Source: Pseudotabrizicola sediminis
GTDB taxonomy: Bacteria > Pseudomonadota > Alphaproteobacteria > Rhodobacterales > Rhodobacteraceae
DNA length: 64,000 nucleotides
Direction of reading: 5' to 3'
Assembly: GCF_004745575.1 (NCBI RefSeq)
Contig: NZ_RPEM01000009.1
Location: 124,001 to 188,000, forward strand
In this document: positions 12,490 to 64,000 of the stretch, piece by piece
Layout: every line of letters starts with the position of its first letter
Numbering within the stretch: the stretch's first letter is position 1
Notes under the pieces: generated by a model
Database searches by the model: none
What the model saw: the letters and a program-made list of their open reading frames with translations, nothing else
Told to the model about the DNA's origin: nothing
Made by a program: the position numbers and the translations under genes

Positions 12490-12539
12490 GTGAAATCCTC
12501 CCATGTGATGTGAAGGGGGCGGTTCGGCCGCTCCTCTGG

Positions 12540-49422: not shown

Positions 49423-49438
49423 GTTGTGCTGCCACAAC
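49423..49438. promoter_or_regulatory. NnrR box B between pseudoazurin and nnrR
   Basis: GTTGTGCTGCCACAAC, TTGT-N6-ACAA. Ends 12 bases before the nnrR start, next to its ribosome site, and lies 69 bases upstream of pseudoazurin: fit to activate pseudoazurin and perhaps obstruct nnrR. Confidence 0.75.
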
Positions 49439-49450
49439 ATCGGAGGCTTT

Positions 49451-50149
49451 GTGTTAAAGAAACTTGACGAAAGTCTGCTGACCGATCTGCCGCCGTTTCG
49501 CAAACTGTCACGCCCGCAAATCCGCGAGATCCTGGATGCGGCAACGCCGTTGCGGTTTGATGCCGGGGTCGCGGTATTCAGCGAAGGCCTGCCGATCGAG
49601 CGGTTCTTTTTGCTGCTCGACGGCCATATCCGGGTGATCCGCACAACGCCCGGCGGCGATCAGATAATCGCGCTGCACATCGCGCCGGGGCAGTTGTTCG
49701 GCATCGGGGTGGCGCTTGGGCGGACCTCCTATCCGGCGACGGCGATGACGGCGGATGAATGTCTGGCGCTGGCGTGGCCCAACCGGCTGTGGGCCACATT
49801 CACCGAACGCTATGACGGTTTTGGCACCGAATCCTACAAGGTTGTCGGAGACCGCGTCGGCGAAATGAACAACCGCATCGTCGAGCTGGCAACCCAAGCG
49901 GTGGAACAGCGCGTGGCCTGCGCCATCCTGCGGCTGATCACCCAGACCGGCCGCAAGGTCGAGGGCGGGATCGAGATCGGCCTGCCGATCACCCGGCAGA
50001 ACATATCCGACATGACCGGCACCACGCTGCACACCGTCAGCCGCTTGCTCAGCGGGTGGGAGCGCGACGGCATCGTGATGTCGGAACGGCGCAAGATCAC
50101 GGTGACAGCACCGCATCAGTTGGTGATCCTCAGTGGCGCGACCGTCTGA
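49451..50149 (+). CDS. nnrR: NnrR/NNR: Crp-Fnr-family nitric-oxide-responsive activator
   Basis: A 232-residue regulator. N-terminal cyclic-nucleotide-binding-like domain (about 20-140: ERFFLLLDGHIRVIRTTPGGDQIIALHIAPGQLFGIG) and C-terminal helix-turn-helix (ITRQNISDMTGTTLHTVSRLLSGW). It lacks the FNR cysteine cluster, as in Dnr/NnrR, where NO is sensed through heme. The GTG at 49451 has GGAGG five bases upstream. Surrounded by denitrification genes carrying TTGT-N6-ACAA boxes, it is their likely activator. A dead copy exists at 51.5 kb. Confidence 0.88.
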   Translation: MLKKLDESLLTDLPPFRKLSRPQIREILDAATPLRFDAGVAVFSEGLPIERFFLLLDGHIRVIRTTPGGDQIIALHIAPGQLFGIGVALGRTSYPATAMTADECLALAWPNRLWATFTERYDGFGTESYKVVGDRVGEMNNRIVELATQAVEQRVACAILRLITQTGRKVEGGIEIGLPITRQNISDMTGTTLHTVSRLLSGWERDGIVMSERRKITVTAPHQLVILSGATV

Positions 50150-50152
50150 GCC

Positions 50153-51340
50153 TCAGCGGCCATTCGGCTGACGGCGGGCCGGGTTGGGCAGGGTCAGCAC
50201 CGGGGCAAAGTGCCAGACGAACAAGCCAAACCCAGCCGTCCACAGCGTTGCCGCGATCCACAGCCCCGCCAATCCGGGAACTGCCACGCGCGCAACCGCC
50301 GCCAGCGCCACACAGGCAAAGGCCAGCGTCAAGGCAGCACCTGCATCCAACGCCCGCCCCGTATGACCAAGCGAGGCGCGCATCATCACCGCAACCGTCA
50401 TGCCGCCAAAGCCACCGATCCCCAGCAGATGAAACCCGGTCGCCGCGGGCAAGACCTCCAGCGCGCCAAGGCCCAGTGCCAACAGCCCCGCCGGCACAAA
50501 GCCAAAGGCCAGATGCAGCATCAACACCAGCGGCGCGGACCAGACCCGCCACCCCCGCCAGCGCAGCATACGCACCCCCTGCCCCACACCCGCCACCACC
50601 AGCAAGACGCCTGTCAGCAGCCATATCGGCCAGATCACCCAGACCAACAGGGCAAGCAGCACCCCGCCAAGACTGACCGCATCAAACCGCCCGAACGGCA
50701 CCGGCAGCGGGCCCGGCTCGGGCGACTGCTTGGCCAGCCAGTTGCGCGTAAAACTGGGGATGATCCGCCCGCCGATCAGCAAGATCAGCAGCACCACCAT
50801 CACAAACCCCAGCCGACGGCCATAATCCGCGCTGCCCAGCAGCGTCGCCTCAAGATGAAAGGTTACATTGGCCGCCAGATACAACAGCACCGGCACCACA
50901 ACCTTGAGGTTGCTCCAGTTGCGCCCCGCCACGATTTCGATCGTGACCATCGCCCCGATCGCTGCCATGAAGGCACAGTCGATGACCATCACCCCGACCG
51001 GCCCAAGCCCAAGCCCCCCGGCCACCGCCAGACGCCCCAGCAGCCACAGCGCCGTTAGCACCATCAGGGGCCAGCCGCGCGTGGGCATGCGTCCGGTCCA
51101 GTTCGGAATCGCGGTGAACAAAAACCCCGCGATCACCGCCGAGGTGTAGCCGAACAGCAGCTCGTGGATGTGCCAGTCCAGCGGTGAAAACGGGCCACCC
51201 AGCACGATATCGCCTGACCAGACCATCATCCACAAAGGCACGATCAGCGCCGCAAAAACGCCCGCCATCAGGAACAGCGGGCGGAAACCATAGCTGAAGA
51301 CGGCGGGGCCGATGTAGGGCGCGCTTATCTGTTTTTGCAT
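50153..51340 (-). CDS. nnrS: NnrS: heme-copper membrane protein for NO stress
   Basis: A 395-residue protein with about 12 transmembrane helices. YGFRPLFLMAGVFAAL, DWHIHELLFGYTSAVIAGFLFTAIPNWTG and GGRIIPSFTRNWL are standard NnrS segments with conserved His. NnrS lowers the toxicity of NO and its products. The frame opens with TTG at 51376, but the ATG at 51340 is the natural start. It ends three bases from the convergent nnrR stop, and NnrR box C lies 167 bases upstream. Confidence 0.92.
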   Translation of the reverse strand: MQKQISAPYIGPAVFSYGFRPLFLMAGVFAALIVPLWMMVWSGDIVLGGPFSPLDWHIHELLFGYTSAVIAGFLFTAIPNWTGRMPTRGWPLMVLTALWLLGRLAVAGGLGLGPVGVMVIDCAFMAAIGAMVTIEIVAGRNWSNLKVVVPVLLYLAANVTFHLEATLLGSADYGRRLGFVMVVLLILLIGGRIIPSFTRNWLAKQSPEPGPLPVPFGRFDAVSLGGVLLALLVWVIWPIWLLTGVLLVVAGVGQGVRMLRWRGWRVWSAPLVLMLHLAFGFVPAGLLALGLGALEVLPAATGFHLLGIGGFGGMTVAVMMRASLGHTGRALDAGAALTLAFACVALAAVARVAVPGLAGLWIAATLWTAGFGLFVWHFAPVLTLPNPARRQPNGR

Positions 51341-51507
51341 GTCGATGCGACTGTCCTCTGGAGTGTACGTCCGCAACCGCGATGCCCGCCCGGAACGAAC
51401 GGCTGACTGGCAGGTTGTTGGAATTGCAACCGAAATGAAGACGCTATCTGACCTGATCTGTCGCCGTCATGTACCCCGGAGTCTGCTCCATCAGGGCAGC
51501 CAGCGTC

Positions 51508-51523
51508 GTTGTTCTGGCACAAC
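51508..51523. promoter_or_regulatory. NnrR box C between nnrS and the nnrR copy
   Basis: GTTGTTCTGGCACAAC, TTGT-N6-ACAA, 14 bases before the start of the dead nnrR copy and on the upstream side of nnrS. The placement mirrors box B relative to nnrR. Confidence 0.72.
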
Positions 51524-51537
51524 CTCAGGACACGCCA

Positions 51538-52323
51538 ATGAAATTCCCCACCACAACCTTTTGCCGGCAGATGATGCCGTTTCACCGACTTGGCACCGAG
51601 CAATTGCGCGAGGCCCTTGGTCTGGCCGAGGTCCGGCGTTTTCACCTCCACCTGTCCCGGCACATCCGCTTTGTCCGGCTGACAGCACAAGGCGACCAGA
51701 TCATCGTTCTTCATGTTCAGGCTGGCCACATGTTCGGGATCGGCACCGTACTGTCGCAGGCAACGCATCAGACAACCGCGATCACCGCCGATCGATGCCT
51801 TGTCCTGTCCTGACCAAACAGCCTTTGGCCAGCCTTTTCGGCCCGATATGATGGCTTTGTCGCCGAGACGCTTCGGGCCTTTGGTGCGCGCGCCGATGAA
51901 ATGAGCACGCGGATTGTCGAGCAGTCGACCAAACTGGTGGAACAGCGGATCGCCTGCGCCTTGCTGCGGATGATCGGCCAATCCGGGCGCAAGGTGGCGG
52001 GCGGGGTAGAGATCGGCTTTCCTGTCACCCGCCAGAACATTGCCGACATGACCGGCACCACCTTGCACACCGTCAGCCGGATTCTGTCGATGGGGGAACG
52101 CCAGGGCATCCTGAAAAGCACCCGCTGCCTGATCATGGTGCGGGACCCGCACCGGCTTGTCATGCTGAGCGGTACTGTGGTCGGGGGCGCGCCGGAGGGC
52201 GGAAACACCCGCGTCCCGGATCTGCAGCCCTATACCAGTGCCCTGATCACCGCCGCATGTAGCTCTGCCCGGAACAGCGCTTCGTCCAACCCGTATTCGG
52301 CGCAGGCGTCGATCACGGTGTGA
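51538..52323 (+). pseudogene. Second nnrR-like gene, disabled by an in-frame TGA and a deletion
   Basis: A paralogue of nnrR in one continuous frame. The first part lacks a section of the cyclic-nucleotide-binding fold (LGLAEVRRF joins directly to HLHLSRHIRF). Codon 92 (51811-51813) is TGA at the position where nnrR has Trp (LAWPNRLW versus LS*PNSLW). The frame then continues through an intact helix-turn-helix (VTRQNIADMTGTTLHTVSRIL). The natural stop is also lost: translation would run on to 52323, over the end of the DUF1858 gene. Duplication followed by decay is the simplest reading. Confidence 0.85.
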
Positions 52324-52448
52324 AACGGCGCGATCGGGCAGCCAAAGCAGAACATTTGGCGCGACAGGAAAACCGTCGCCGTCGCGGGCCAGGTGTCAAA
52401 CAGCAGTGCCAGCGGCAGATCGGGATCGTCCATCCTTGGGCCGGGCAT
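52230..52448 (-). CDS. DUF1858-type small protein
   Basis: A 72-residue protein: DLPLALLFDTWPATATVFLSRQMFCFGCPIAPFHTVIDACAEYGLDEALFRAEL. The CxxC-like FCFGCP motif and the DLPLALL opening identify the DUF1858 (hybrid-cluster-protein-associated) family. GGAGG lies five bases upstream of the ATG at 52448. It is divergent from norC, with NnrR box D exactly midway (61 bases from each start), so it belongs to the NO-reduction regulon. Function unknown, probably iron-sulfur or thiol related. Confidence 0.82.
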   Translation of the reverse strand: MPGPRMDDPDLPLALLFDTWPATATVFLSRQMFCFGCPIAPFHTVIDACAEYGLDEALFRAELHAAVIRALV

Positions 52449-52509
52449 GGTGCCTCCGCAGCGGCAGGGGTGCCGCTTGTGCAAAGTGCCCGCACCATTG
52501 CCCCGCGTC

Positions 52510-52525
52510 GTTGTGCTGGAACAAC
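52510..52525. promoter_or_regulatory. NnrR box D between DUF1858 gene and norC
   Basis: GTTGTGCTGGAACAAC, TTGT-N6-ACAA, 61 bases from both divergent starts, the same distance as box A from nirK. Confidence 0.8.
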
Positions 52526-52586
52526 GTCCGCCCCCGCCACCGCCCGTAAAAGCATCTGATCCGCAACGATTCCAGGGACCGTCCGC

Positions 52587-53039
52587 ATGTCAGAGATCCT
52601 TACGAAGTCACGGGCCAGAAACATTTTCTACGGTGGGTCCATGTTTTTCATCGTCGTATTCGTGCTCATGACCATCCATTCGCACAACTATGTTGTGAAA
52701 GTTTCCACCGCCGGGATGCCGCTGTCGCCAGAGGTAATCCTGGGCAAGCATGTCTGGGAACGCCACAGCTGCATCAACTGCCACACGCTGCATGGCGAGG
52801 GGGCGTATTTCGCGCCTGAACTGGGCAATGTGATGACCCGCTGGGGCGTGCTGGACAACGCCGAAGACGCTTACATCACGCTAGACGGCTGGATGGCCGC
52901 CCAGCCCAGCGGCATCGAAGGGCGTCGCCAGATGCCGCATTTCGAGATCACGCCGGAAGAAATGCGCGGTCTGGCAGAGTTTTTACGCTGGGCTGACCAG
53001 ACAGACACCCAAGGCTGGCCGCCCACGGATGCGGGCTAG
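52587..53039 (+). CDS. norC: NorC: cytochrome c subunit of nitric oxide reductase
   Basis: A 150-residue membrane-anchored cytochrome: one helix (about 14-30) and heme motif CINCH at 62-66 within WERHSCINCHTLHGEGAYFAPEL, the NorC signature. It passes electrons to NorB. First gene of the norCBQD operon, with NnrR box D upstream. norB begins nine bases after its stop. Confidence 0.95.
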   Translation: MSEILTKSRARNIFYGGSMFFIVVFVLMTIHSHNYVVKVSTAGMPLSPEVILGKHVWERHSCINCHTLHGEGAYFAPELGNVMTRWGVLDNAEDAYITLDGWMAAQPSGIEGRRQMPHFEITPEEMRGLAEFLRWADQTDTQGWPPTDAG

Positions 53040-53048
53040 GAGAAAACC

Positions 53049-54401
53049 ATGAAATATCAATCACAAAAAGTGGCATACGCCTATTTCCTTGTCGCCATGG
53101 GCCTGTTCGGCATTCAGGTGCTGGGCGGGTTGCTGGCGGGCTGGGTCTACATATCTCCCAACACCCTGTCGGAACTGCTGCCGTTCCACATCATCCGGAT
53201 GATCCATACCAACGCCCTGATCGTCTGGCTGCTGCTCGGCTTTTTCGGCGCGGCGTACTTTCTGGTGCCCGAAGAGGCCGAGCGTGAAATCTGGTCGGTC
53301 AAGCTGGCCTACCTGCAACTCGTCATCCTTGTCGTCGGCACTCTGGGCGCCGTCATCGGCTACGTTTTTCGCATTCACGGCGGGCGCGAGTTTCTGGAAC
53401 AACCCCTGTGGGTCAAGTTCGGCATCCTAGTCGCCGCGGTGATCTTCCTGCTGAACATCTCGATGACCGTTCTGGCGGGGCGCAAGACCGCCATCACCGG
53501 CGTTTTGCTGACCGGCCTGTGGCTCTTGTCGCTGTTGTGGATCTTTGCCTTCATAAACCCCGACAACCTCAGCCTCGACAAGATGTACTGGTGGTTCGTC
53601 ATCCACCTGTGGGTCGAAGGGACATGGGAACTGGTGATGGCTGCGATCCTTGCCTTCCTGATGCTGAAACTGACCGGTGTTGACCGCGAGGTGGTGGAAA
53701 AGTGGCTGTATGTCATCGTCGCCACAGCGCTTTTCTCGGGAATCCTTGGCACCGGCCACCACTTCTACTGGATCGGCCTGCCGGCATACTGGCAGTGGAC
53801 CGGCTCGATCTTCTCGGCCTTCGAGGTTGTGCCGTTTTTTGCGATGATGGCCTTTGCCTTCATCATGGTCTGGAAGGGGCGGCGCAACCATCCTAACAAG
53901 GCGGCCCTGCTCTGGGCCTTGGGCTCGGCAACGGTGGCGTTCTTTGGGGCGGGCGTCTGGGGCTTTCTGCACACATTCCACGGTGTGAACTTCTATACCC
54001 ACGGAACGCAGATCACTGCAGCCCACGGTCACCTTGCCTTTTACGGTGCCTACGTCGCGATGAATCTGGCCATCATCACCTATGCCATGCCTCTGCTGCG
54101 GGGCCGTGCACCTTACAACCAGGTGCTCAACATGGTGTCGTTCTGGCTGATGACCGGGGGCATGGCGTTCATGACCTTTGTGCTGACCTTTGCCGGTACG
54201 ATCCAGACCCACATGCAACGCATCGTCGGTGATTACTACATGGACGTGCAGGACCAGCTTGGCCTCTTCTACGTCATGCGCTTCGGGGCCGGGATTGCGG
54301 TCGTTCTGGGCGCGATCCTGTTCATCTACAGCCAGGTCGTCGTGCGGCGCGAGGTCATCACGCCGGACACGATGCCTGAACCCGAAGGGAACGTGGCATG
54401 A
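53049..54401 (+). CDS. norB: NorB: catalytic subunit of nitric oxide reductase
   Basis: A 450-residue heme-copper family protein with 12 helices. Key segments: HIIRMIHTNALIVWLLLGFFGA (heme b ligand), HLWVEGTWELV (His and Glu near the FeB site), GTGHHFYWIG and HTHGTQITAAHGHLAFYGAYV. It reduces two NO to N2O. It overlaps norQ by four bases. The absence of a long N-terminal quinol-oxidase extension shows it is the cytochrome-c-dependent type, cNOR. Confidence 0.96.
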   Translation: MKYQSQKVAYAYFLVAMGLFGIQVLGGLLAGWVYISPNTLSELLPFHIIRMIHTNALIVWLLLGFFGAAYFLVPEEAEREIWSVKLAYLQLVILVVGTLGAVIGYVFRIHGGREFLEQPLWVKFGILVAAVIFLLNISMTVLAGRKTAITGVLLTGLWLLSLLWIFAFINPDNLSLDKMYWWFVIHLWVEGTWELVMAAILAFLMLKLTGVDREVVEKWLYVIVATALFSGILGTGHHFYWIGLPAYWQWTGSIFSAFEVVPFFAMMAFAFIMVWKGRRNHPNKAALLWALGSATVAFFGAGVWGFLHTFHGVNFYTHGTQITAAHGHLAFYGAYVAMNLAIITYAMPLLRGRAPYNQVLNMVSFWLMTGGMAFMTFVLTFAGTIQTHMQRIVGDYYMDVQDQLGLFYVMRFGAGIAVVLGAILFIYSQVVVRREVITPDTMPEPEGNVA

Positions 54402-55204
54402 ACGCACTTTCCCCGGAACGGACGGGGGCCGAAGCCCCCTTCTACCGCCCTGTCGCACAGGAAGTCGCCCTGTTCGAGGCGGCCCATGCCAACGGTCTGC
54501 CCCTTCTTCTGAAGGGGCCGACCGGTTGCGGCAAGACACGGTTCGTAGAGCATATGGCGGCCCGGCTGAACCGCCCGCTTTATACCGTCGCCTGCCACGA
54601 TGACCTGTCGGCCGCCGATCTGATCGGGCGCTACCTTCTGCGCGGCGGTGCCACAGAATGGGTCGATGGCCCCCTGACCCGCGCTGTGCGGGAAGGGGCG
54701 ATCTGCTACCTTGATGAGGTGATCGAGGCAAGGAAGGACGTGACGGTGGTGCTTCACCCTCTGACCGACAACCGCCGCACCCTGATGATCGACCGCACCG
54801 GCGAGGAACTGGTGGCCCCACCCGCCTTCATGCTGGTGGCCAGCTACAACCCCGGCTACCAGAACATCCTGAAGCGGCTGAAGCCATCCACCCGGCAGCG
54901 GTTCCTGTCGATCACCTTTGGCTTTCCCGATGCGGTGACGGAAACAGCCGTGGTCGCCCGTGAAAGCGGCCTTGATGCCGCCCGCGTGGTGCCGCTGGTG
55001 CGGCTGGCAGGCCATATCCGGGCGCTATCGGGCATGGATCTGGAGGAAGGCGTTTCCACCCGGCTGCTGATCTACGCCGCCACCCTGATCGCCGGGGGCA
55101 TGCCGATTGACCGCGCCCTGCAGGCCGCCGTGATCGAGCCTCTGACCGACGAGCCCGACGTCGCCCAGGCCCTGCGCGATGTGATCGCATCGGTTTACGG
55201 CTGA
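54398..55204 (+). CDS. norQ: NorQ: MoxR-type AAA ATPase for NO reductase activation
   Basis: A 268-residue ATPase: Walker A GPTGCGKTR (40-48), Walker B ICYLDEVIEA (about 107-116) and sensor/arginine residues in STRQRFLSITF. With NorD it inserts the non-heme iron (FeB) of NorB. The start overlaps the norB stop; norD follows after three bases. Confidence 0.95.
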   Translation: MNALSPERTGAEAPFYRPVAQEVALFEAAHANGLPLLLKGPTGCGKTRFVEHMAARLNRPLYTVACHDDLSAADLIGRYLLRGGATEWVDGPLTRAVREGAICYLDEVIEARKDVTVVLHPLTDNRRTLMIDRTGEELVAPPAFMLVASYNPGYQNILKRLKPSTRQRFLSITFGFPDAVTETAVVARESGLDAARVVPLVRLAGHIRALSGMDLEEGVSTRLLIYAATLIAGGMPIDRALQAAVIEPLTDEPDVAQALRDVIASVYG

Positions 55205-55207
55205 GCC

Positions 55208-57088
55208 ATGGCCCTGCACGCAAAAGACCTGATGGAGCCCGAAGAGACGATGGGCAACCTCTGGCACGGGGTGGCGCAGCGTCTGGCCCCCGTTGCGGGA
55301 TATGCCGACAGCGCGGTCGCGCTGGAGGCGGTGCGTCCCGGTGTGGCGCTGCTGTTCCGCGCGCTTGGTGGCGCGGCGGGCGTCGAGATTGCGCCCTGCC
55401 CTGCCACCGCCTCGCGCCACCGCCGCGGGCTTGGCGCACAGCTTGCCGAAGCGCGGGTGATGGAACACGTGGCAACGTTTGACGGCACCACCCTGCGCCT
55501 GCCGCCGGTGATGGATGCTTTCCCAACTGCTGACTTGAACCGCGTGGCCTATCTGTGGCTGGCGGCCTTGGCGGCGGGGGCGGAACCCTATCCGGTTCCC
55601 GACGATGCCTGTGACGCCGACATGACCCACCTTGCCGCGATGTCAGCGGCAACCGTATGCGCCCTCGCGCTTTGCCCCGGTCTGCGCGCGCCGCACGCCG
55701 ATTTTTGCGCACATCTGCTGAAAACCCTGCCGGATTTCGCCGCCTCCGCCGCCGAACGCGCGGCAGGATACCACGCCCGCGCGCTGTTGTCGGGCGAGCT
55801 ACCGCCCGAGGTCGGCCCCGGCCCGGCCCCGCGCAGCTATGCTCCGCTTCCGCCTCTGCCGATCTGGATACGGCTGGACCGCGCGGCGCGTGGCACGCCT
55901 GCCACACCGGCAGAGGAAGCGATCAGCGCCCCGCCGGGCCTTGCCACCGCAACCCGCAAGCAGGCGATGCGCGAGGACAACGATCAGGCCAACCGCACTG
56001 ACAGTTTCATCATGCACCGGTTCGAATCCATCTTCTCATGGGTTGAAAGCATGGGCCTGAACCGCGCGACCGATGACGACGATCTTGAAAACGCGCAGAA
56101 GGCTGCCGAGGATCAGGACCATATCGCGCTGACCAAACACCACAAACGCGCCGCAACCCGCCTGCGCCTGCATCTGGACCTTGCTCCGCAGGACGCCGAC
56201 CACGAGCGTCTGTCCGATATATTCACCTACCCAGAATGGAACCACCGCGCCCGCGCCTACATGCCCGACCACACCCGCGTGCTGGAGGCCGAGGCAACCC
56301 CCGGCGAACGCTTTGCCCCCGACCCGCGCCTGATGGCCCGCGTCCGCGCGCAATTTCAGGCGATGCACCCCCGCCGTATCCTGTTGCCCCGGCAGGTGGA
56401 CGGGGCAGAGCTTGACCTTGACGCGCTGATTGCAGCCCAAGTTGCAATCCGCGCCACGGGCCAAGGCAGCGACCGCATCTTCCGCAACCTGCGCACTGTG
56501 GAACGCGACCTTTCGGTGGCGATCCTGATGGACTGCTCACGTTCGACCGAATCCGTGGTGGGCAGCCGCAGCATCATCGACACCATGCGCGAGGCGTTGG
56601 CAGCGCTCGCAGGCGGCATCGACGCGGCTGGCGACCGGCTGGCGATCTGGGGCTTTTCGTCCCTGCGCCGCGACCGGGTGTTCCTGACCCGCTGCAAGGG
56701 GTTTGACGGTCGCGTGACACCCGATGTCACCGCCCGCATCGGCGGCCTGATCCCCGGCCACTATACCCGCCTTGGGGCGGCGATCCGTCATGCGACGACG
56801 CAATTGGCGGCAGAGCCTTCGGCGCGCAAACTGCTTGTGGTGCTGACCGATGGTAAACCGAATGACCTTGACCATTATGAGGGCACCCACGGCATCGAGG
56901 ACAGCCACATGGCCGTGCGCGAGGCCCGCCGCCTAGGCCACGCGGTGCATGGCGTGATCGTGGATGCCGACGGGCAAGACTGGTTCGCCCGCATCTTTGG
57001 CCGCGCCGGGTTCACCCTGCTGCCTGACCCCGCCCGCCTTGGCCGCGCCCTGCCCGATATCTACCGATCCCTGACCCTGGAGAGCTGA
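55208..57088 (+). CDS. norD: NorD: von Willebrand factor A protein for NO reductase activation
   Basis: A 626-residue cytoplasmic protein. The N-terminal ~430 residues form the family-specific region; the C-terminal vWA domain begins near residue 435 with the MIDAS motif LMDCSRSTES and continues through TDGKPNDLDHYEG. It works with NorQ as chaperone-like metal inserter for NorB. Length is normal. Followed closely by two small membrane-protein genes and nnrU. Confidence 0.94.
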   Translation: MALHAKDLMEPEETMGNLWHGVAQRLAPVAGYADSAVALEAVRPGVALLFRALGGAAGVEIAPCPATASRHRRGLGAQLAEARVMEHVATFDGTTLRLPPVMDAFPTADLNRVAYLWLAALAAGAEPYPVPDDACDADMTHLAAMSAATVCALALCPGLRAPHADFCAHLLKTLPDFAASAAERAAGYHARALLSGELPPEVGPGPAPRSYAPLPPLPIWIRLDRAARGTPATPAEEAISAPPGLATATRKQAMREDNDQANRTDSFIMHRFESIFSWVESMGLNRATDDDDLENAQKAAEDQDHIALTKHHKRAATRLRLHLDLAPQDADHERLSDIFTYPEWNHRARAYMPDHTRVLEAEATPGERFAPDPRLMARVRAQFQAMHPRRILLPRQVDGAELDLDALIAAQVAIRATGQGSDRIFRNLRTVERDLSVAILMDCSRSTESVVGSRSIIDTMREALAALAGGIDAAGDRLAIWGFSSLRRDRVFLTRCKGFDGRVTPDVTARIGGLIPGHYTRLGAAIRHATTQLAAEPSARKLLVVLTDGKPNDLDHYEGTHGIEDSHMAVREARRLGHAVHGVIVDADGQDWFARIFGRAGFTLLPDPARLGRALPDIYRSLTLES

Positions 57089-57089
57089 C

Positions 57090-57266
57090 ATGCGCCTGCC
57101 CCTGATCCTTTTCGCGATCCTGACACCCGCCCTTGCCACTGCCGAAGCCTTCCAACGCCCGATTCCGCAGCCGCAAACGGCCGAGGCTGAATTGGCCTAT
57201 CTCGCCGCCTCATTGGTTTTCCTTGCGGCGCTGGTCGCGGTGCAGTGGCTGGTCAGCCGCAGATGA
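57090..57266 (+). CDS. 58-residue exported/membrane protein downstream of norD
   Basis: Starts one base after the norD stop (TGACATG). It has a hydrophobic signal-like N-terminus (LPLILFAILTPALA), a short Pro/Gln-rich middle (FQRPIPQPQTAEAE) and a C-terminal helix (LAYLAASLVFLAALVAVQWLV) ending in SRR. Its stop overlaps the next start by ATGA, so the nor genes stay coupled through it. I do not know a named family for it; it may be a minor NOR assembly factor. Confidence 0.7.
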   Translation: MRLPLILFAILTPALATAEAFQRPIPQPQTAEAELAYLAASLVFLAALVAVQWLVSRR

Positions 57267-57487
57267 CCTCACACACCAGCATGGGGCGTCTGTTCCTGTA
57301 CCTCTACCCATTCGGCGCAGGGGCGATGGCGGTAAATGTGTTCTTTGCATCCCTGATCTGGTCGTGGATCGGTTGGCCAGTGCTGACGCCTGCGCAATCG
57401 GTGCTGGGCGGCGCTGTGCTGGGCGTGCCCGCAACTTGGGCCTTCGCCCGCCACATCAGAAACTTGATGGAAAAGGCCGACCCGTGA
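57263..57487 (+). CDS. NorF-like small membrane protein
   Basis: A 74-residue protein with two transmembrane helices (GRLFLYLYPFGAGAMAVNVFFASLIWSWIG and PAQSVLGGAVLGVPATWAFA). Size, topology and place after norD resemble NorF of norCBQDEF operons, but no NorE-like (subunit III type) gene is present. Overlaps the preceding gene by four bases and nnrU by four bases (GTGA). Name is by position and form only. Confidence 0.6.
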   Translation: MTSHTSMGRLFLYLYPFGAGAMAVNVFFASLIWSWIGWPVLTPAQSVLGGAVLGVPATWAFARHIRNLMEKADP

Positions 57488-58182
57488 TCCTGTCGGGCTG
57501 GGCAGAATTCGCGCTGGCGCTGGTTGTGTTCATGGGGTCGCATTTCCTGCCCCGAGTGGGCGGCCTGCGCGAAACCCTGATCGGCAAGATCGGTCGGCGC
57601 GCATATTTTGCAGGCTATGGCATCACATCGTTGGTGGTGCTGGTCTGGCTGATCGGGTCCGCGAGCCGGGCACCCTATGTGGAGATCTGGGCCGCGTCTG
57701 AATGGACCCGCAAAGTGCCCGCTGTCGTTATGCCCTTTGCGATGGTCCTCGCCGTGATCGGTATTGGAACCCGGTGGCCCTTTACCCTTGGCGGCAAGGA
57801 GGCCACGGCGTTCGACCCGGCAAAACCCGGTCTGGCCGCACTGACCCGGCACCCGCTGCTGTGGGGCTTGGCGCTTTGGTCGGCAGCACATCTGCCACCA
57901 AACGGCGACTTTGCGCATGTGCTCCTGTTTGGCGGATTTGCCCTCATGAGCCTTGCCGCAATGCCGATGTTTGACCGCAGGGCAAAGGCCGCGCTTGCAA
58001 CAGGCGACACCGCGCGGTGGTTTCAATCGGCGCCGCTGCTGTCATTCGAGACACTGACTGACCCGAATTGGCTGAAGGCAAACGGTCGCGATTTGACATG
58101 GCGTCTGGCCATTGCGGCGGTAACATGGGCGGTGGCGTTTGGTCTGCACAGCACAGTGATGGGTGTGTCCCCAAACCCGTGA
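57484..58182 (+). CDS. nnrU: NnrU-family membrane protein
   Basis: A 232-residue inner-membrane protein with six or so helices. The motif TRHPLLWGLALWSAAHLPPNGD (about 120-142) with its conserved His and the opening GWAEFALALVVFMGSHFLPR identify NnrU, a methyltransferase-like membrane family required for full NO reductase activity in some denitrifiers. The GTG start at 57484 overlaps the previous stop. Last gene of the nor operon. Confidence 0.88.
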   Translation: MILSGWAEFALALVVFMGSHFLPRVGGLRETLIGKIGRRAYFAGYGITSLVVLVWLIGSASRAPYVEIWAASEWTRKVPAVVMPFAMVLAVIGIGTRWPFTLGGKEATAFDPAKPGLAALTRHPLLWGLALWSAAHLPPNGDFAHVLLFGGFALMSLAAMPMFDRRAKAALATGDTARWFQSAPLLSFETLTDPNWLKANGRDLTWRLAIAAVTWAVAFGLHSTVMGVSPNP

Positions 58183-58442: not shown

Positions 58443-58781
58443 TCACAGGCCTTCTTGCATGATCAGAAGGACTGTCGCGGGCAGATCTGTGTCATTGCGC
58501 AGGGCGCGGGCCTCGCCCGGAGCGAATGCGCAGGAGTCCAAGGGGCCAAGAACGGCATCTTCTTTGCCGTTTCCAAGCGTCACGTGACCAGAGATGACAA
58601 TGTACAACTTTTCCTGCGGCGAAGCCTTCAGCGAGGTATGCCCGCCGGGTAGCAGCGTCGACATACCCATCCACATCGACTGCGTCGCCGTCGCCTCTTT
58701 GCCCTGAAGACGCAAGCAGGCCATGTCGAAATGCTCGGGCGCATCGTAGCGGCGCGCGTCTGTGATCCGGGTGATCTGCAC
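58443..58781 (-). CDS. Cupin-domain protein
   Basis: A 112-residue single-domain beta-barrel: MSTLLPGGHTSLKASPQEKLYIVISGHVTLG and GPLDSCAFAPGEARALRNDT form the two cupin motifs, the first with fewer metal-type His than usual. It begins two bases after the MDR gene and is the last gene of a six- or seven-gene leftward operon. Possible isomerase, lyase or small-molecule sensor in that pathway; the substrate is unknown. Confidence 0.72.
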   Translation of the reverse strand: MQITRITDARRYDAPEHFDMACLRLQGKEATATQSMWMGMSTLLPGGHTSLKASPQEKLYIVISGHVTLGNGKEDAVLGPLDSCAFAPGEARALRNDTDLPATVLLIMQEGL

Positions 58782-58782
58782 C

Positions 58783-59787
58783 TTATGGCCTCAGAATGAC
58801 GCGGTCCGAGGTGGAGCGCAGGACCGAGGCATAGGCTATGGCTGCGTCCTGCAGTCCATAGATCGCGGCGGGTTTGATCGGAAAGGGCCTCAGCCGCCCG
58901 GACTCGAAGCTGGGCTTCAGCTTGTCAAAAATGCGCGCGCAATAGGTGCTGTCCAGTCCCAGCGAGTCGATGCCGATGTACTTGTGGCGGCCGCGGAAGA
59001 AGGTGAAAATATCGAAATCCACCGCCCGGTCAAAGGTCGAGATGAAGATCTGCCGCGCGCCCTTGGCCATCGACTTGTTGGCTATGTCAAAGAACGGGCT
59101 GCCGACGACGTTGAAGACGATATCGACACCGGAACCGCCGGTCCGGTCGCGCACCAGAGCCGCCACATCCTGCGAAGAGCTGTCGAACATCTCGACTTCG
59201 GCATTGGCATGGCCGAGATAGCCCACGGGCCTGTGCACCGCGCCAAAAACACGCGCCCCGGCAAGCGTGGCCAGTTGGATCGCCGCCTGACCAACCTTGC
59301 CGTTGGCACCGCACACCAGCACGGTTTCCCAGGGTTGCACGCCCCCGGCTTCGCGCAGACCTTCAAACGCGGTGATAAAGGGCACCCCGATCGAGCCTGC
59401 CTCTTCAAAGCTCATCGACTCAGGTTTGGCGCGGACGGCGGCTTGCGGCAGCACCATCCATTTCGCATGGCTACCGTTCTGGGTGATCCCCAGTTCACCC
59501 CCGCCCCCCCAGACTTCGGTGCCCACCAGATGCGCCGGACCCTCGCGGACAATGCCGCCAAAGTCACGGCCCGGAGTTCGGGGCCACGTGGCGTGGGGCA
59601 TGTGGCCCAGAGCAGCCTTGACGTCCGACGGATTCACCCCGGCGGCGATGATTTCAACCAGAACCTGACCGGGGCCGGGCACTGGCGTTTCGGACTCGAT
59701 CAGATTGATCTTCAGGTTGTCGAGATCGGAAGACTTCTCGTCAACCCGCAATGCGGGCCCGGTCTTGGCTCTGGTCTGAACGTTCAT
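58783..59787 (-). CDS. MDR-family NADPH quinone oxidoreductase/alkenal reductase-like enzyme
   Basis: A 334-residue medium-chain dehydrogenase without the structural zinc site. GVNPSDVKAALGHMP, PGRDFGGIV and the cofactor motif VCGANGKVGQAAIQLA (about 151-166) are present. It probably reduces a double bond or keto group. The ATG at 59787 has AGGAG nine bases upstream; the frame opens earlier but without a site. Lies between the BKACE and cupin genes in the same operon. A maleylacetate-reductase-like role in that operon is speculative. Confidence 0.78.
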   Translation of the reverse strand: MNVQTRAKTGPALRVDEKSSDLDNLKINLIESETPVPGPGQVLVEIIAAGVNPSDVKAALGHMPHATWPRTPGRDFGGIVREGPAHLVGTEVWGGGGELGITQNGSHAKWMVLPQAAVRAKPESMSFEEAGSIGVPFITAFEGLREAGGVQPWETVLVCGANGKVGQAAIQLATLAGARVFGAVHRPVGYLGHANAEVEMFDSSSQDVAALVRDRTGGSGVDIVFNVVGSPFFDIANKSMAKGARQIFISTFDRAVDFDIFTFFRGRHKYIGIDSLGLDSTYCARIFDKLKPSFESGRLRPFPIKPAAIYGLQDAAIAYASVLRSTSDRVILRP

Positions 59788-59812
59788 AGGTGAAATCTCC
59801 TTTCTAAATCTG

Positions 59813-60694
59813 CTATGTCTGCAGGCCCAGCATTGCGCGTGCCTCATCCGGAGTGGCGATCTGGCCGCCCAGCTTTTCGATCAGGTCGCGGGCGCGCTCG
59901 GTCAACTCGCCATTGCCTGCGGTCAACTGGCCTTTGGAAATATAGCTGGTGTCTTCCATGCCGATGCGGACGTGTCCGCCCAGAAGCCAGGACTGCACCA
60001 GCATCGGAAACGCCATCCGTCCGATGCCAAAGCCTGTCCAGATACTGCCGGGCGGCAGCATCCGCGCGGCAGTGGCCATGGCATCGGGCGTAGAGGGCAG
60101 CCCGTATTTCACGCCCGTGACGATGGAACAAAGCATCGGCCCCGCAATCGAGCCATCCTGCAGCATGTCTTGGGCAAGACCGATGTCGCCGGTGTCGAAC
60201 AGTTCGATCTCGGGTTTCACACCAGCCTCGCGGATGATTGCGGCCATGATCCGGGCCGAGCGGGGTGTGTTGATCACGACCTGTCCGCCAGAATTCATGG
60301 TGTTTAGGTCCAGCGTGCAGATTTCGGGCTTCAGCGCCGTGATATGTTCGACGCGCTTTTCCGGCGGCAACAGGGTTGTGCCGGGTCCGGCGATGGCGGG
60401 GTTGTCGTCGGACGGAACATATCGCCCCCCCGGGCCGGTCGTCAGGTTCAGGATCAGCGCGGAATTGCGCGCGCGGATCAGCGCGACCACCCGGGCGTAA
60501 AGCTCCAGATCCATCGACGGAGCAGCGGTCACCGGGGCGCGCACATGGATATGCGCAATGGATGCCCCCGCATCCGCGGCGTCAAGGCAGGCCTGCGCGA
60601 TTTCCTCGGGCGTGGCGGGCAGGCCGGGGTGCTGAGCGCGGGTGGCAAGGTTGCCGGTTACGGCGCAGGTGATGATGACCTTTGGCAGCATCAT
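59813..60694 (-). CDS. BKACE-family beta-keto acid cleavage enzyme
   Basis: A 293-residue TIM-barrel protein. KVIITCAVTGN opens the barrel, HIHVRAP (48-50) gives the zinc-binding His pair, and the C-terminal glycine and Glu region GMEDTSYISKGQL is typical. BKACE enzymes cleave a beta-keto acid with acetyl-CoA, giving acetoacetate and a new acyl-CoA. Beta-ketoadipate is one reported substrate among many. The start at 60694 overlaps the SDR stop by ATGA. The neighbouring dioxygenase makes a beta-ketoadipate-type substrate plausible. Confidence 0.82.
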   Translation of the reverse strand: MMLPKVIITCAVTGNLATRAQHPGLPATPEEIAQACLDAADAGASIAHIHVRAPVTAAPSMDLELYARVVALIRARNSALILNLTTGPGGRYVPSDDNPAIAGPGTTLLPPEKRVEHITALKPEICTLDLNTMNSGGQVVINTPRSARIMAAIIREAGVKPEIELFDTGDIGLAQDMLQDGSIAGPMLCSIVTGVKYGLPSTPDAMATAARMLPPGSIWTGFGIGRMAFPMLVQSWLLGGHVRIGMEDTSYISKGQLTAGNGELTERARDLIEKLGGQIATPDEARAMLGLQT

Positions 60695-61437
60695 AGAGCC
60701 CGCCCTGCATCGACCGCGATTCTGATGCCAGTGGACAGCGGCATATGGGCGATGGCGGCGTAGATGGTGTCTGCCACATCCGACGGCTGGGCCGTCAGCC
60801 CCAGAGGGGTGGCAGAGCCTGCTTTTTCGATCTGTTCCGCCGTGCGTCCGGGGACAAATCCGGTGGCGACCATGCCGGGCGACACGGACAGCACCCGGAC
60901 ATCCGGTGCCAGTGCCAGCGCAAGGGTATGGGTCATCGAATCCAGTGCCGCCTTGGCCCCGCAATAGGCGACCGAGGAGCCGAACCCCTTATAGGCGGCG
61001 ATGGAGGAGACGTTGATGATGACGGCGGGTCTGCTGGCCCGCAGCATCGGCGCAAAGGCGCGGATGGTCGCGAACACCCCGCGCCAGTTCGAGGCAAAGA
61101 CCTCGTCTATGATCGTATCGGTCAGACTGTCCAGATCACCATGCGGCACCGGCGTCGTGGTGCCCGCCGCGTTCACCAAAATGTCGGTGCGGCCATGGCG
61201 GTCCTGCACCGCATCACGAAAGGCGGTGATGCTGGCGCTGTCAGTGACGCTGACCGACAGTGCGGAGTGGTTCTGACCGGGCAGCGTCGACGCCAGCGCC
61301 CTGGCTCGGTCCTGCCCCGAGCGGTAGCCGATGACGACAGTCGCCCCCGCCGCCGCCAGCTTTTCGCAGGTTGCCGCCCCGATCCCACCCGACCCGCCGA
61401 CGACGACGGCGATCTTGCCTGCAAGTTGCCCGCTCAT
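60691..61437 (-). CDS. SDR-family oxidoreductase (3-oxoacyl-ACP reductase-like)
   Basis: A 248-residue classical short-chain dehydrogenase: cofactor loop GGSGGIG (residues 14-20), NAAG, catalytic Ser-Tyr-Lys (VSSIAAYKG... SVAYCGAK) and a terminal VDAGRAL. It overlaps both the dioxygenase stop (four bases) and the BKACE start. It probably oxidises or reduces an alcohol or keto intermediate in this operon. Confidence 0.85.
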   Translation of the reverse strand: MSGQLAGKIAVVVGGSGGIGAATCEKLAAAGATVVIGYRSGQDRARALASTLPGQNHSALSVSVTDSASITAFRDAVQDRHGRTDILVNAAGTTTPVPHGDLDSLTDTIIDEVFASNWRGVFATIRAFAPMLRASRPAVIINVSSIAAYKGFGSSVAYCGAKAALDSMTHTLALALAPDVRVLSVSPGMVATGFVPGRTAEQIEKAGSATPLGLTAQPSDVADTIYAAIAHMPLSTGIRIAVDAGRAL

Positions 61438-62363
61438 GCTGCTTTTCCAGAAATCGGCGGAAGGGGGAAATTGGGTGTGCCGGGCTTCAACACGAAATCG
61501 TATTGGCAGGTCATGAACGGCGGCTCGACAGCGGGAAATCCGGGCAGGGGCAACTCGCTGGTCTGCAGCGCGACCGCGATCTGTTCCTTGGCACCGAACA
61601 CCACATCATCAAGCATTGCGGCCTTTGTATCGACAAAAATCTGTGTGATCAGCGTCTTGTGAGCCGGGGCTGAAACGATGAAATGGATATGCGCAGGGCG
61701 CATCGGGCTGCGGTTTTGCGCTGCCAGAAGCGGCCCGGTGGGCGAGGTGTGGGTCGGCACCGGATAGCCTGCTGGCCGGATGGTATGCAGGTGATACCGG
61801 CCCGCTCCATCGGTCGTATAGACCGCGCGCAGGTTGTAATCGGGCTGGTCGGGGTCCTGATTCTCATAAAGCCCCTTGGGATCGGCCTGCCAGACATCGA
61901 GGCGTGCCCCGGCGATCGGCTGGCCCGCGGTATCAAGCACCCGCCCCGACATCAGAAGCGGCTCGCCCACCGTATCGTTTCGGGCCATGCTTTCGCCCGG
62001 CGCACAGTCGGGGGCAGAACCACGGTAGAACGGACCCAGCAGCGCCGACATGGTTTCGCCCTGCATGCCGTCGTTGTTGATCAGGTCCACCAGTGTTGAC
62101 AGACCGATCACGTCGCAGAACAGCACAGCCTCATTATGCGCAGCATTGGTCGCCTTGCCGATGTCGTTCAGAAACTGCAACCCGGCCTCATATTCCTGTT
62201 CCGTCGGTCGCACCTCGATGAAAAAGGCGTGCAGGTGGCGAACCATCGCCGCCATGATCTGGCGAAGCCGGGGGTCGGTGGTGTCTTCCATCGCCTTCAG
62301 GACATAGGGGGTGACATCGGACTCGTTGGCGATCAGGTGGTCGTGTTTCGACGAAGTATCCAT
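61434..62363 (-). CDS. Intradiol ring-cleavage dioxygenase (hydroxyquinol/catechol 1,2-dioxygenase type)
   Basis: A 309-residue non-heme iron(III) enzyme. The N-terminal helical dimer domain precedes the catalytic barrel, with iron ligands Y166 (GLYENQ), Y200 (RPAGYPVP), H225 and H227 (RPAHIHF). GPFYRGSAPD is the usual signature. It opens a 1,2-diol aromatic ring between the hydroxyls. The sequence is nearer to hydroxyquinol than catechol dioxygenases by general form, which would give maleylacetate. It sits between an amino-acid-type ABC permease and the SDR. Confidence 0.86.
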   Translation of the reverse strand: MDTSSKHDHLIANESDVTPYVLKAMEDTTDPRLRQIMAAMVRHLHAFFIEVRPTEQEYEAGLQFLNDIGKATNAAHNEAVLFCDVIGLSTLVDLINNDGMQGETMSALLGPFYRGSAPDCAPGESMARNDTVGEPLLMSGRVLDTAGQPIAGARLDVWQADPKGLYENQDPDQPDYNLRAVYTTDGAGRYHLHTIRPAGYPVPTHTSPTGPLLAAQNRSPMRPAHIHFIVSAPAHKTLITQIFVDTKAAMLDDVVFGAKEQIAVALQTSELPLPGFPAVEPPFMTCQYDFVLKPGTPNFPLPPISGKAA

Positions 62364-62367
62364 GATT

Positions 62368-63423
62368 CTAGTCCCAGTTCAGAATGCGCGGCAGGCGGTG
62401 GTTGCGGGCCAGCGTGCCGACAATGCCCAGAGGGAAGAACAACAACACGACCACCATCAGCACGCCCGTTGCCAAGATGTTGAGTTCGGACGCACCCAGG
62501 GTGGCGACAAAGACCTCGTTGAAAGCGGTGATCAGGATGGCGCCGATCACGGGCCCTGCGATGGTGCCCTTGCCACCGAGAATGCACATCAGCACCAGGT
62601 TGACGCTGACCAGAATGACCAGAAAGATGTTTGGCCGGATGTAGGTAAGGTATTCACCCCAGACCGCCCCCGCCATGCCGACAAAGGCAGCAGAGATCGC
62701 GAATGCGAGCACCTTGTAGGTGCGGGTGTCGATCCCGGCACTTTCGGCCTTGATCTCGTCTTTGGAAATCGCGCGAAGGCCGAGCCCGAATTTTGAATGC
62801 TTTATCCGGTAAGACGCCCAGACCGAAAAGGCAGCCAGAATGACGAAGGCGTAGTAATAGGGCAGCTTGGACCACAGGACCGGAAGGTCATTGGCTTTCA
62901 GCGCCACCCCGTTGGCACCGCCGACAAAGGTCCAGTGGTCAAAGAGGATACGTGCGATCATCACCAGCGCCAGCGACGAGATGATGAAGCTGGGGCCACG
63001 GGTCTTGAGCGTGATGCTGCCGATCAGATAGCCGACGGCGGCGCACAAGATCCCTGCCATGGGTGCCATGAGGATGGTGGATACCCCGTAGCGGGCAAAG
63101 ATCATCCCGGCAAAGTAGCCGCCGATGGCAAAGAACACGTTATGCCCCAGACTGATGTAGCCCGTGAAACCGCCAAGGATGTTCCAGCCCGATGCCATGG
63201 CTGCGTAGCAGGCGGTGAACAGAACAAGGTGCAGGACATAGTTGTAATTGCCCACGAATTGCAGCGCCGGCAAAGCCAACAGCACGGCCATCAGGACCAG
63301 CGGAAACCAGATGCTGCGGGCCTTGTCGGCGCTAGCAGCGAGCTTGATATTGTAAGCCTTACGAGCCTCCAGCACGGCAGAGACGCCTTCGGAAGCATCG
63401 GATTTTGTTGCGACGGTCATCAT
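62368..63423 (-). CDS. Branched-chain amino acid-type ABC permease (LivM-like)
   Basis: A 351-residue inner-membrane permease with about nine helices. GYISLGHNVFFAIGGYFAGM and the EAA-like loop FGLGLRAISKDEIKAESAGIDTRTYKVLAF identify the LivM family. Its start overlaps the LivH stop (ATGATG). In the aromatic-catabolism setting such importers often carry aromatic acids or ring compounds rather than leucine. It continues into the dioxygenase gene with only four bases between. Confidence 0.86.
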   Translation of the reverse strand: MMTVATKSDASEGVSAVLEARKAYNIKLAASADKARSIWFPLVLMAVLLALPALQFVGNYNYVLHLVLFTACYAAMASGWNILGGFTGYISLGHNVFFAIGGYFAGMIFARYGVSTILMAPMAGILCAAVGYLIGSITLKTRGPSFIISSLALVMIARILFDHWTFVGGANGVALKANDLPVLWSKLPYYYAFVILAAFSVWASYRIKHSKFGLGLRAISKDEIKAESAGIDTRTYKVLAFAISAAFVGMAGAVWGEYLTYIRPNIFLVILVSVNLVLMCILGGKGTIAGPVIGAILITAFNEVFVATLGASELNILATGVLMVVVLLFFPLGIVGTLARNHRLPRILNWD

Positions 63424-64000
63424 GCAAGCTCCGGTTTTTCGCCGAACAACCCCTGGGGGCGAACGAGCAGGATCAGGAAGAGGGCCAGAAAGAAGGTCAT
63501 TGTCGACCAGGTCGAGCCGAACCAGACCCCGACAAAAGCCGCGATGATGCTGAGCAGGAACGACGCCAGCACGGTGCCAAGGATCGACCCCATGCCGCCC
63601 AGCACGACCAGCGACATCAGCACGGCGACCCACTCCCAGTGCTTTGCCGGGAAAAAGGAAAAGACAAACGACACCAGCGCACCTGCGGCCCCCGCAAGGC
63701 CGATGCCGATGGCAAAGCTCATGATCCCGACGAGGTTCACGTTGACGCCCAGCAGTTCAGCCGCGTCACGGTTCTGGGTGGTGGCGCGGATGGCATTGCC
63801 AAAGCGCGAGTATTTCAGAAAGGCCGCCAGCGCGCCAATGATCACCAGCGACACGATGCCGGCGTAAAGCTGACCCATGGGGATGAAGACATTGCCGATG
63901 AAGATGGCGTCGGTCGCATAGCCGGGCGACGTCACACGTTGGGTGTTGGTGAACATGAAGCCCAGCGCACCTTCGACGATCATCGCGGTGGCGAATGTGA
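63420..64000 (-). CDS. Branched-chain amino acid-type ABC permease (LivH-like), partial
   Basis: The C-terminal ~193 residues of a LivH-type permease; the N-terminal part is beyond the right edge and the frame is open to the end of the window. It carries the LivH loop RATTQNRDAAELLGVNVNLV followed by helices LVVLGGMGSILGTVLASFLL and the final RPQGLFGEKPELA, a common LivH end. ATPases and binding protein are expected upstream, outside the window. Confidence 0.87.
   Translation of the reverse strand, partial: TFATAMIVEGALGFMFTNTQRVTSPGYATDAIFIGNVFIPMGQLYAGIVSLVIIGALAAFLKYSRFGNAIRATTQNRDAAELLGVNVNLVGIMSFAIGIGLAGAAGALVSFVFSFFPAKHWEWVAVLMSLVVLGGMGSILGTVLASFLLSIIAAFVGVWFGSTWSTMTFFLALFLILLVRPQGLFGEKPELA

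Follow-up and report, generated by a model that had tools for sequence, protein, structure and literature searches.

A stretch of 64,000 nucleotides from Pseudotabrizicola sediminis (the window hereafter; bases 124001–188000 of the 197,603-base contig NZ_RPEM01000009.1, in a genome of 4.04 Mb and 86 contigs) carries at its far end an operon in which genes for an intradiol dioxygenase, a short-chain dehydrogenase/reductase (SDR), a DUF849-family beta-keto acid cleavage enzyme (BKACE), a medium-chain dehydrogenase/reductase (MDR) and a cupin follow a Liv-type ATP-binding cassette (ABC) importer. The five enzyme and cupin genes (the cassette) are real and belong to a single operon that continues past the window end, as proposed in an earlier note on this DNA, and the same set recurs in 40 loci, an observation more general than the window alone could show. 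We tentatively read the whole as a LacI-controlled catabolic operon that would import an aromatic compound, open its ring, reduce the product at a C=C bond with the MDR and process it with the DUF849 enzyme, a reading to which we give a little less than even confidence.

Layout and conservation of the operon

The operon comprises the following genes. Those beyond the window are numbered in L003, a locus with its own coordinate system that extends the contig past the window end.

58443–58781, minus strand: cupin, 112 aa, GTG start, terminal gene of the operon; Pfam Cupin_2 34.1 bits (cut-off 27.2)
58783–59787, minus strand: MDR-family reductase of the quinone-oxidoreductase/ene-reductase type, 334 aa (start codon ATG at 59787); ADH_N 38.3, ADH_zinc_N 47.4
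59816–60694, minus strand: DUF849/BKACE-family enzyme, BsfD-like subfamily, 293 aa; PF05853 308.6 bits (cut-off 24.8)
60691–61437, minus strand: SDR oxidoreductase, 248 aa; adh_short 145 bits
61434–62363, minus strand: intradiol dioxygenase, hydroxyquinol 1,2-dioxygenase-like, 309 aa; Dioxygenase_C 150.9, Dioxygenase_N 88.9
62368–63423, minus strand: LivM-type ABC permease; BPD_transp_2 127.1 bits
63420–64000, minus strand, truncated by the window edge: LivH-type ABC permease; BPD_transp_2 71.9 bits (portion inside the window)
L003:7420–8298, operon strand: the full LivH open reading frame (ORF), 292 aa
L003:8314–9042, upstream of LivH, beyond the window: LivF, from ORF reading
L003:9042–9785, upstream of LivF, beyond the window: LivG, from ORF reading
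L003:9852–11126, beyond the window: binding protein, with a start codon of our choosing
L003 about 11485–12513, plus strand, divergent: LacI-type gene; best NCBIfam model RbsR at 187 bits, below its cut-off of 382

The gene order is thus a divergent LacI-type gene followed by binding protein-LivG-LivF-LivH-LivM-dioxygenase-SDR-BKACE-MDR-cupin, and the Liv transporter set is complete once the sequence beyond the window is included. Overlaps of 4 bases join the dioxygenase to the SDR, the SDR to the BKACE and LivM to LivH; the BKACE and MDR genes are separated by 28 bases and the MDR and cupin genes by a single base. Of the two genes that the earlier note had expected beyond position 64000, the binding protein was found, while no hydroxylase was seen. 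In the last 9.6 kb of the contig, where family models were run on the binding protein and the LacI-type gene and the other ORFs were read by eye, neither a hydroxylase nor a CoA transferase nor a thiolase was recognized, and family-model calls and ORF reading revealed no iron-containing alcohol dehydrogenase (Fe-ADH) in the operon.

To assess conservation, GTDB genomes were scanned with the dioxygenase alone, which yielded 80 loci, and the other cassette genes were sought in these by tblastn. They accompany the dioxygenase in 40 of the 80 loci, from alpha- and betaproteobacteria; L013 stops behind its dioxygenase and was not classifiable, and the remaining 39 are without the cassette. All 40 cassette loci contain the SDR (on the opposite strand in L014 and L016) and the MDR (on the opposite strand in L009, L033, L035 and L057), 39 contain the BKACE (absent from L037) and 38 the cupin (absent from L033 and L034). 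By ORF calls, the strict close run dioxygenase-SDR-BKACE-MDR-cupin is present in at least 26 of the 41 loci that include L013. Such counts of contiguous runs are minimum values, as the simple ORF caller missed or misassigned genes (e.g. in L017, L027, L030, L041 and L042). A chance neighbourhood was rejected on this conservation.

The importer is more variable. A Liv set was found in 21 of the 40 cassette loci, and other ABC genes are close to the cassette in some of the others. Several loci without the Liv set have genes for tripartite ATP-independent periplasmic (TRAP) transporters, TctC proteins or dicarboxylate symporters (SDF) close to the cassette, which fits an acidic substrate. One example of each cluster of neighbouring genes was scanned with family models. 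Across the 40 loci, with single flanking ORFs mostly unscanned, neither a hydroxylase, a CoA transferase, a thiolase nor an iron-type reductase is a constant neighbour. A hydroxylase as a necessary part of the system was rejected on these grounds and on those of the contig remainder.

The gene set also occurs in annotated plasmid records. It is accompanied by TRAP and tripartite tricarboxylate transporter genes in Bosea and by Liv and glutathione S-transferase (GST) genes in Rhizobium T136 and Shinella HZN7, and all three records include a LacI gene; a Skermanella plasmid has the set with TRAP and LacI genes, the annotated cupin sitting in the divergent TRAP group. Only four of the five cassette genes are listed in the records of R. 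leguminosarum RCAM0626 and Rhizobium RCAM05350, and three further plasmid records have no gene table over the cassette region. Among 15 other genomes of the same genus, only two gave dioxygenase matches at 1e-60 or better, with a mere 40 and 43% identity. The operon was probably acquired by horizontal transfer. Ahead of the operon, window positions 49424–58182 hold ORFs that by eye resemble NorC, NorB, NorQ and NorD, presumably a nitric oxide reductase cluster, together with what we take from their appearance to be an NnrS-like membrane protein, an NnrU-like protein and Crp/Fnr-type regulators.

The dioxygenase and its partner proteins

Among 36 solved relatives, the dioxygenase is closest to the hydroxyquinol 1,2-dioxygenase 1tmx (212.1 bits) and to PnpC 3n9t (208 bits), with catechol enzymes at 122.4 bits or less. 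Tyr166, Tyr200, His225 and His227, which by reference to 1tmx we take to be the ligands of the metal (Fe), are invariant in 24 aligned sequences. The protein thus combines the Tyr/Tyr/His/His set with hydroxyquinol enzymes as nearest relatives, and the ring cleavage of hydroxyquinol type implied by the earlier note is supported by this comparison. A beta-keto diacid is a plausible product of such a dioxygenase, and a BKACE next in line fits a cleavage product that is a beta-keto acid.

The window enzyme appears to have a history of its own. Compared with the corresponding operon of Puniceibacterium (L029), ten operon proteins are 78–92% identical but the dioxygenase only 62%, and the L029 dioxygenase itself shares 82% identity with its counterpart in L007 and 84% with that in L009. 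The tree places the window dioxygenase with that of Roseibium limicola (L004; 66% identical, support 100/95), whose operon carries a GST gene. A GST-family gene lies between LivM and the dioxygenase in all 21 Liv-type relatives (one example scanned) and is absent from the window; elsewhere in the same genome, the search for a GST gave only a 33% match over 64 residues. Taken together, the low identity, the tree position and the missing GST make it look as if the window dioxygenase was replaced in place and the GST lost with it. The stretch DLINNDGMQGETMSALLGPFYRG is identical in the dioxygenases of the window and of L004, L005, L007, L010, L012, L020 and L029. The GST of L010 matched LigF (90 bits) and maleylacetoacetate isomerase (77.5 bits) among solved structures, which gives no substrate.

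Dioxygenase genes outside the cassette have other company. L058:3419–12463, with similar places in most of L044–L083, combines a non-cassette dioxygenase with HpaH, HpaI, an AroE-like dehydrogenase, a type II dehydroquinase, two isomerases (one CHMI-type, one a TIM barrel) and an ABC importer for polar amino acids, the family-model scan covering L058 only. Its apparent role is ring cleavage linked to shikimate/quinate, with the product passed to a hydratase and an aldolase. A variant at L091:3327–18446, on plasmid pSWIT02 of Rhizorhabdus wittichii RW1, comprises genes for an FAD monooxygenase, a thiamine pyrophosphate enzyme, an aldehyde dehydrogenase, the dioxygenase, a hydratase, an aldolase and a TonB receptor.

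The partner proteins were less specific in their matches. The best NCBIfam model for the MDR was quinone_pig3 (105.4 bits, below the cut-off of 296.8); its NPSD stretch is invariant in 17 aligned sequences, and the enzyme might act on maleylacetate as an ene reductase or else reduce a hydroxyquinone. In the SDR, Asn117, Ser145, Tyr158 and Lys162 are invariant (18 aligned sequences), and comparison with solved structures returned general SDRs only, the dihydrodiol dehydrogenase 9ng1 being second in the list. An AlphaFold model of the cupin (pLDDT 81.6) matched the Mn cupin TM1459 and other small cupins, and the binding protein matched only weak amino-acid-type binders. Naming the substrate from the structure matches of the binding protein, the SDR or the GST was abandoned, these being weak or unspecific.

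The DUF849 enzyme and its relation to BsfD

Membership of the DUF849 family follows from the PF05853 score together with the Zn ligands His48, His50 and Glu247; these residues, Arg91 and Phe166 are invariant in 26 aligned cassette proteins. An AlphaFold model (pLDDT 88.7) aligned to DUF849 structures with Z scores of 36.5–40.4, other TIM barrels at about 15–16 being counted as background. The NCBIfam KCE model gave 232.7 bits, below its cut-off of 382, and at column 16 Leu replaces the Glu of KCE; the models for 3,5-dioxohexanoate (180.3 bits, cut-off 430) and for the bifunctional KAL/KCE proteins (148 bits, cut-off 725) also failed. The canonical catalytic Tyr (Tyr145 in CcaKce, Tyr173 in PdKce) is replaced by Phe166 in all 40 cassette proteins.

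The closest solved sequence is 9zsc (with three sister entries), the BsfD protein of the flavophos cluster, residues 4–290 of which are 56% identical to the window enzyme and 55–61% to other cassette members, as against 41% to a second BKACE of the same genome and 28–34% to proteins recognized by the 3-oxoadipate model NF053568. According to PMC12871164, BsfD transfers an acetyl group to a beta-keto acid, 3-oxo-4-phosphonobutanoate, and loss of CO2 follows; acetylation is tied there to a Phe166 that replaces Tyr and to Arg91, which is part of an insertion after beta3 and lies close to the phosphonate, and His48, His50 and Glu247 are named as Zn ligands. Arg91, in an insertion loop, and Phe166 occur with the same numbering in 40 of 40 cassette proteins, and Arg226 (40/40), Tyr251 (39/40) and Lys254 (30/40) are further residues common to both, so that the window enzyme has a BsfD-type sequence. 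The two differ in setting, as the BsfD gene lies in a phosphonate biosynthetic cluster and the window gene in a ring-cleavage operon, its chemistry being predicted from sequence. The position of Arg91 near the phosphonate in BsfD speaks for an anionic far end of the substrate here too, which fits a ring-derived diacid.

Five comparison proteins score 432–499 bits with NF053568, and four of them lie beside or near pca dioxygenase genes. They include two from Microvirga VF16 (454 and 455 bits), one adjoining pcaHG and the other 7 kb from pcaH, and one from Methylobacterium NEAU 140 (462 bits), a genome with no PcaH over the cut-off; the Microvirga and Methylobacterium enzymes are 29–35% identical to the window BKACE. 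The other two belong to genomes that also have the cassette, described below. Phe occupies the position 166 column in all seven NF053568-clade proteins and in the second BKACE of the same genome, so that Phe alone is no marker of acetylation. These annotated members are exceptions to the statement in PMC12871164 that Tyr is present in all BKACE sequences. An Arg shared by cassette and NF053568 proteins was considered as support for beta-ketoadipate and rejected, as only five of the seven clade proteins have Arg in the column and loop lengths differ.

A further gene of this kind was noted at L131:4162–14468 (Poseidonocella pacifica), where a cassette-like BKACE (55%) lies behind a class III aminotransferase. 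Its neighbours are genes for an IclR regulator, an enoyl-CoA hydratase, a TRAP importer and a pair of PcaGH-like dioxygenase subunits, and the locus may encode another pathway that joins ring cleavage to a DUF849 enzyme.

A proposed pathway and its alternatives

In the order of steps that we infer, the Liv-type transporter would import a small, already hydroxylated aromatic of hydroxyquinol type, and the dioxygenase would open the ring between adjacent hydroxyls to give an unsaturated beta-keto diacid, e.g. maleylacetate. The C=C bond would then be reduced by the MDR, a step for which an iron-containing maleylacetate reductase is usual, and the DUF849 enzyme would act with acetyl-CoA on the beta-keto diacid, its distal anion near Arg91. 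Acetyl-CoA-dependent processing of a ring-derived beta-keto diacid is the most likely role of the latter, and it probably proceeds by cleavage, which would yield acetoacetate together with an acyl-CoA; with beta-ketoadipate as the acid, the latter would be succinyl-CoA. For the SDR, conceivable tasks are production of the substrate for ring cleavage, maintenance of the quinol in its reduced state and modification of an additional hydroxyl.

The hydroxyquinol pathway consists of hydroxyquinol 1,2-dioxygenase and an Fe-ADH maleylacetate reductase. The cassette has the same dioxygenase type but differs in its lack of an Fe-ADH or hydroxylase in the operon and in its additional SDR, BKACE, MDR and cupin; PcaIJ and PcaF, of the beta-ketoadipate lower pathway, are not in the operon either. 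The absence of CoA transferase and thiolase from the operon agrees with the bypass put forward in the earlier note; as an idea, the bypass is already in print, for the other subfamily (NF053568). A COG3246 protein near cat genes was proposed as a beta-ketoadipate cleavage enzyme in 2019 (PMC6449761), a beta-ketoadipate group is listed within the BKACE family (PMC4922564), and Methylobacterium pca operons with a BKACE instead of PcaIJ/PcaF were described in 2022 (PMC8963497) and 2025 (PMC12379598). In the Methylobacterium pca/kce operon, as in the cassette, a DUF849 enzyme replaces CoA transferase and thiolase after intradiol cleavage; unlike the cassette, that operon has PcaGH and the pca lactone enzymes, and SDR, MDR and cupin go unmentioned in the accessible parts of the two reports. 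A deoxyribonate oxidation cluster (PMC6365646) pairs an SDR with a BKACE as the cassette does: the SDR makes a beta-keto acid which the neighbouring BKACE was proposed to cleave. Its substrate is aliphatic, and the portion at hand names no ring-cleavage dioxygenase, MDR or cupin. Among the papers listed in our searches of an open-access library, none described the dioxygenase-SDR-BKACE-MDR-cupin set, and within that scope the suggestion that no such operon had been described stands for the gene set, if not for the BKACE bypass.

Other aromatic routes in the same genome bear on this proposal. A cluster on another contig (C78) holds a flavin hydroxylase, an Fe-ADH, another intradiol dioxygenase and Liv-like transporter genes, and its Fe-ADH is presumed from its neighbours to be a maleylacetate reductase. 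PF00465 (Fe-ADH) matches lie on C34, C26, C78 and C1 and none on C86, the contig of the operon. CoA-transferase matches lie on C23 and C5, the C5 pair having a PcaF beside it (710.6 bits, cut-off 605) and including a PcaJ-type subunit (289.8 bits, cut-off 243.55). In 35 of the 40 cassette genomes, the five left aside being metagenome-assembled genomes, the same genes were searched for: 13 have no match at 1e-40 to the Fe-ADH of P. sediminis, and two, Poseidonocella (G067) and Puniceibacterium (G086), have neither such a match nor a pcaF over the cut-off. Neither gene is thus needed to keep the cassette.

Both of the latter genomes, the only two searched for a separate pca operon with an NF053568 BKACE, have a PcaHG pair followed directly by such an enzyme (432 bits in G067, 499 bits in G086), with pobA also present in G086. 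The PcaHG proteins are 61–64% identical to a Microvirga protein that passes the PcaH cut-off. These arrangements, at L129:7604–11351 (with pobA) and L130:8354–10531 in roseobacter-type genomes, indicate that a putative bypass of the published type is present in both genomes as an operon separate from the cassette, and they extend the PcaHG-BKACE arrangement of Methylobacterium to marine bacteria.

Several observations weigh against the proposed pathway. Given the hydroxylase/Fe-ADH/dioxygenase cluster on C78 and the PcaF and PcaJ on C5, the host is independent of the cassette for beta-ketoadipate and a bypass is not forced; among the cassette genomes, 22 of 35 have the Fe-ADH and 33 of 35 pcaF. 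At distances of up to 10 kb from the cassette, L024, L028 and L062 have Fe-ADH-type genes and L019 and L025 hydroxylase-type genes, and the cassette and an Fe-ADH/hydroxylase route may work side by side. The dioxygenase family is not uniformly of hydroxyquinol type, since its non-cassette relatives (42–48% identical) are often near HpaH-type (29 of 39 loci) and HpaI-type genes (27 of 39), which handle 2-oxo acids; the former cluster is 2-oxohept-4-ene-1,7-dioate hydratase and the latter an aldolase, one example of each having scored over the cut-off. In a dioxygenase tree that included the cassette loci and 20 of the 39 non-cassette loci (rows shorter than 280 aa being dropped), cassette and non-cassette enzymes were intermixed (5 changes). 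The window BKACE reaches only 161.5 bits with the 3-oxoadipate model NF053568 (cut-off 350), and cassette BKACEs are separate from the NF053568 clade in both trees, with group support of 100/100 without BsfD and 67/17 with it (L130 omitted), BsfD branching beside the group. An NF053568 enzyme beside PcaHG in two genomes that also have the cassette argues for different acids. On these three grounds, the earlier proposal of beta-ketoadipate as the BKACE substrate is not upheld. Furthermore, BsfD, the closest characterised relative found, C-acetylates instead of cleaving, so that cleavage is not assured; the BKACE end point of the earlier note is only partly supported, in that the substrate of BsfD, a beta-keto acid whose far end is anionic, suits a beta-keto diacid. 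Lastly, SDR and cupin are as conserved as the other genes yet have no part in the proposed path; as a full account, the route from the earlier note falls short in giving them no job.

This last point is met by a different acid. The DUF849 enzyme may cleave another beta-keto diacid, derived from a ring that bears an extra group (e.g. a second ring hydroxyl or a side chain), on which the SDR (and the cupin) would act ahead of the BKACE as in the deoxyribonate pathway. We regard this as possible, if rather doubtful. It would explain why SDR and cupin are conserved, it has a precedent for adjoining SDR and BKACE genes in PMC6365646, and it agrees with a separate BKACE subfamily that coexists with the NF053568 enzyme in two genomes; on the other hand, no neighbouring gene names the substrate, and isozymes for the same substrate may span subfamilies.

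Chemistry like that of BsfD is unlikely in comparison. Here the beta-keto diacid would receive an acetyl group from acetyl-CoA at its alpha carbon and then lose CO2, and the resulting beta-diketone would be split by a hydrolase. The 56% identity to the closest characterised relative found, Phe166, Arg91 and an equal loop length favour this, as does the presence, in 11 loci, of a gene from an FrsA-like alpha/beta hydrolase cluster (one example scanned) behind the cassette. But the cassette has no hydrolase as a regular member, BsfD has a biosynthetic role and a long branch in the tree, and the Phe is also found in the seven NF053568-clade proteins, the kind that replaces PcaIJ/PcaF in Methylobacterium according to PMC12379598. 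Improbable too, in our view, is a distinct lower pathway of hydroxyquinol type in which the MDR replaces the iron maleylacetate reductase, the BsfD-type DUF849 enzyme C-acetylates and decarboxylates the ring-derived diacid to a beta-diketone, and BsfD descended from such a catabolic enzyme. If true, beta-ketoadipate would be converted to 4,6-dioxoheptanoate, and aromatic carbon would leave via a diketone rather than beta-ketoadipyl-CoA. That two functions share the locus by chance, ring cleavage by the dioxygenase (and MDR) on the one side and, unrelated to it, the use of an aliphatic acid by the SDR and BKACE on the other, could account for L037 without BKACE, for L014 and L016 without an SDR at the usual place and for L039 with its dioxygenase apart from the others, but is highly improbable for genes kept together in 40 loci of two classes with differing importers and few exceptions.

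Maleylacetate reduction is usually assigned to iron alcohol dehydrogenases; if the MDR is a maleylacetate reductase, an enzyme unrelated to these would serve that step. The Arg91 loop and Phe166 of BsfD are general among the proteins of this ring-cleavage gene set, which makes the question of cleavage or acetylation in the DUF849 family directly testable. Returning to our tentative reading of a catabolic operon, the cassette is widespread, plasmid records included, and through the pathway five genes with poor annotation in many rhizobia, roseobacters and burkholderias would gain a function.

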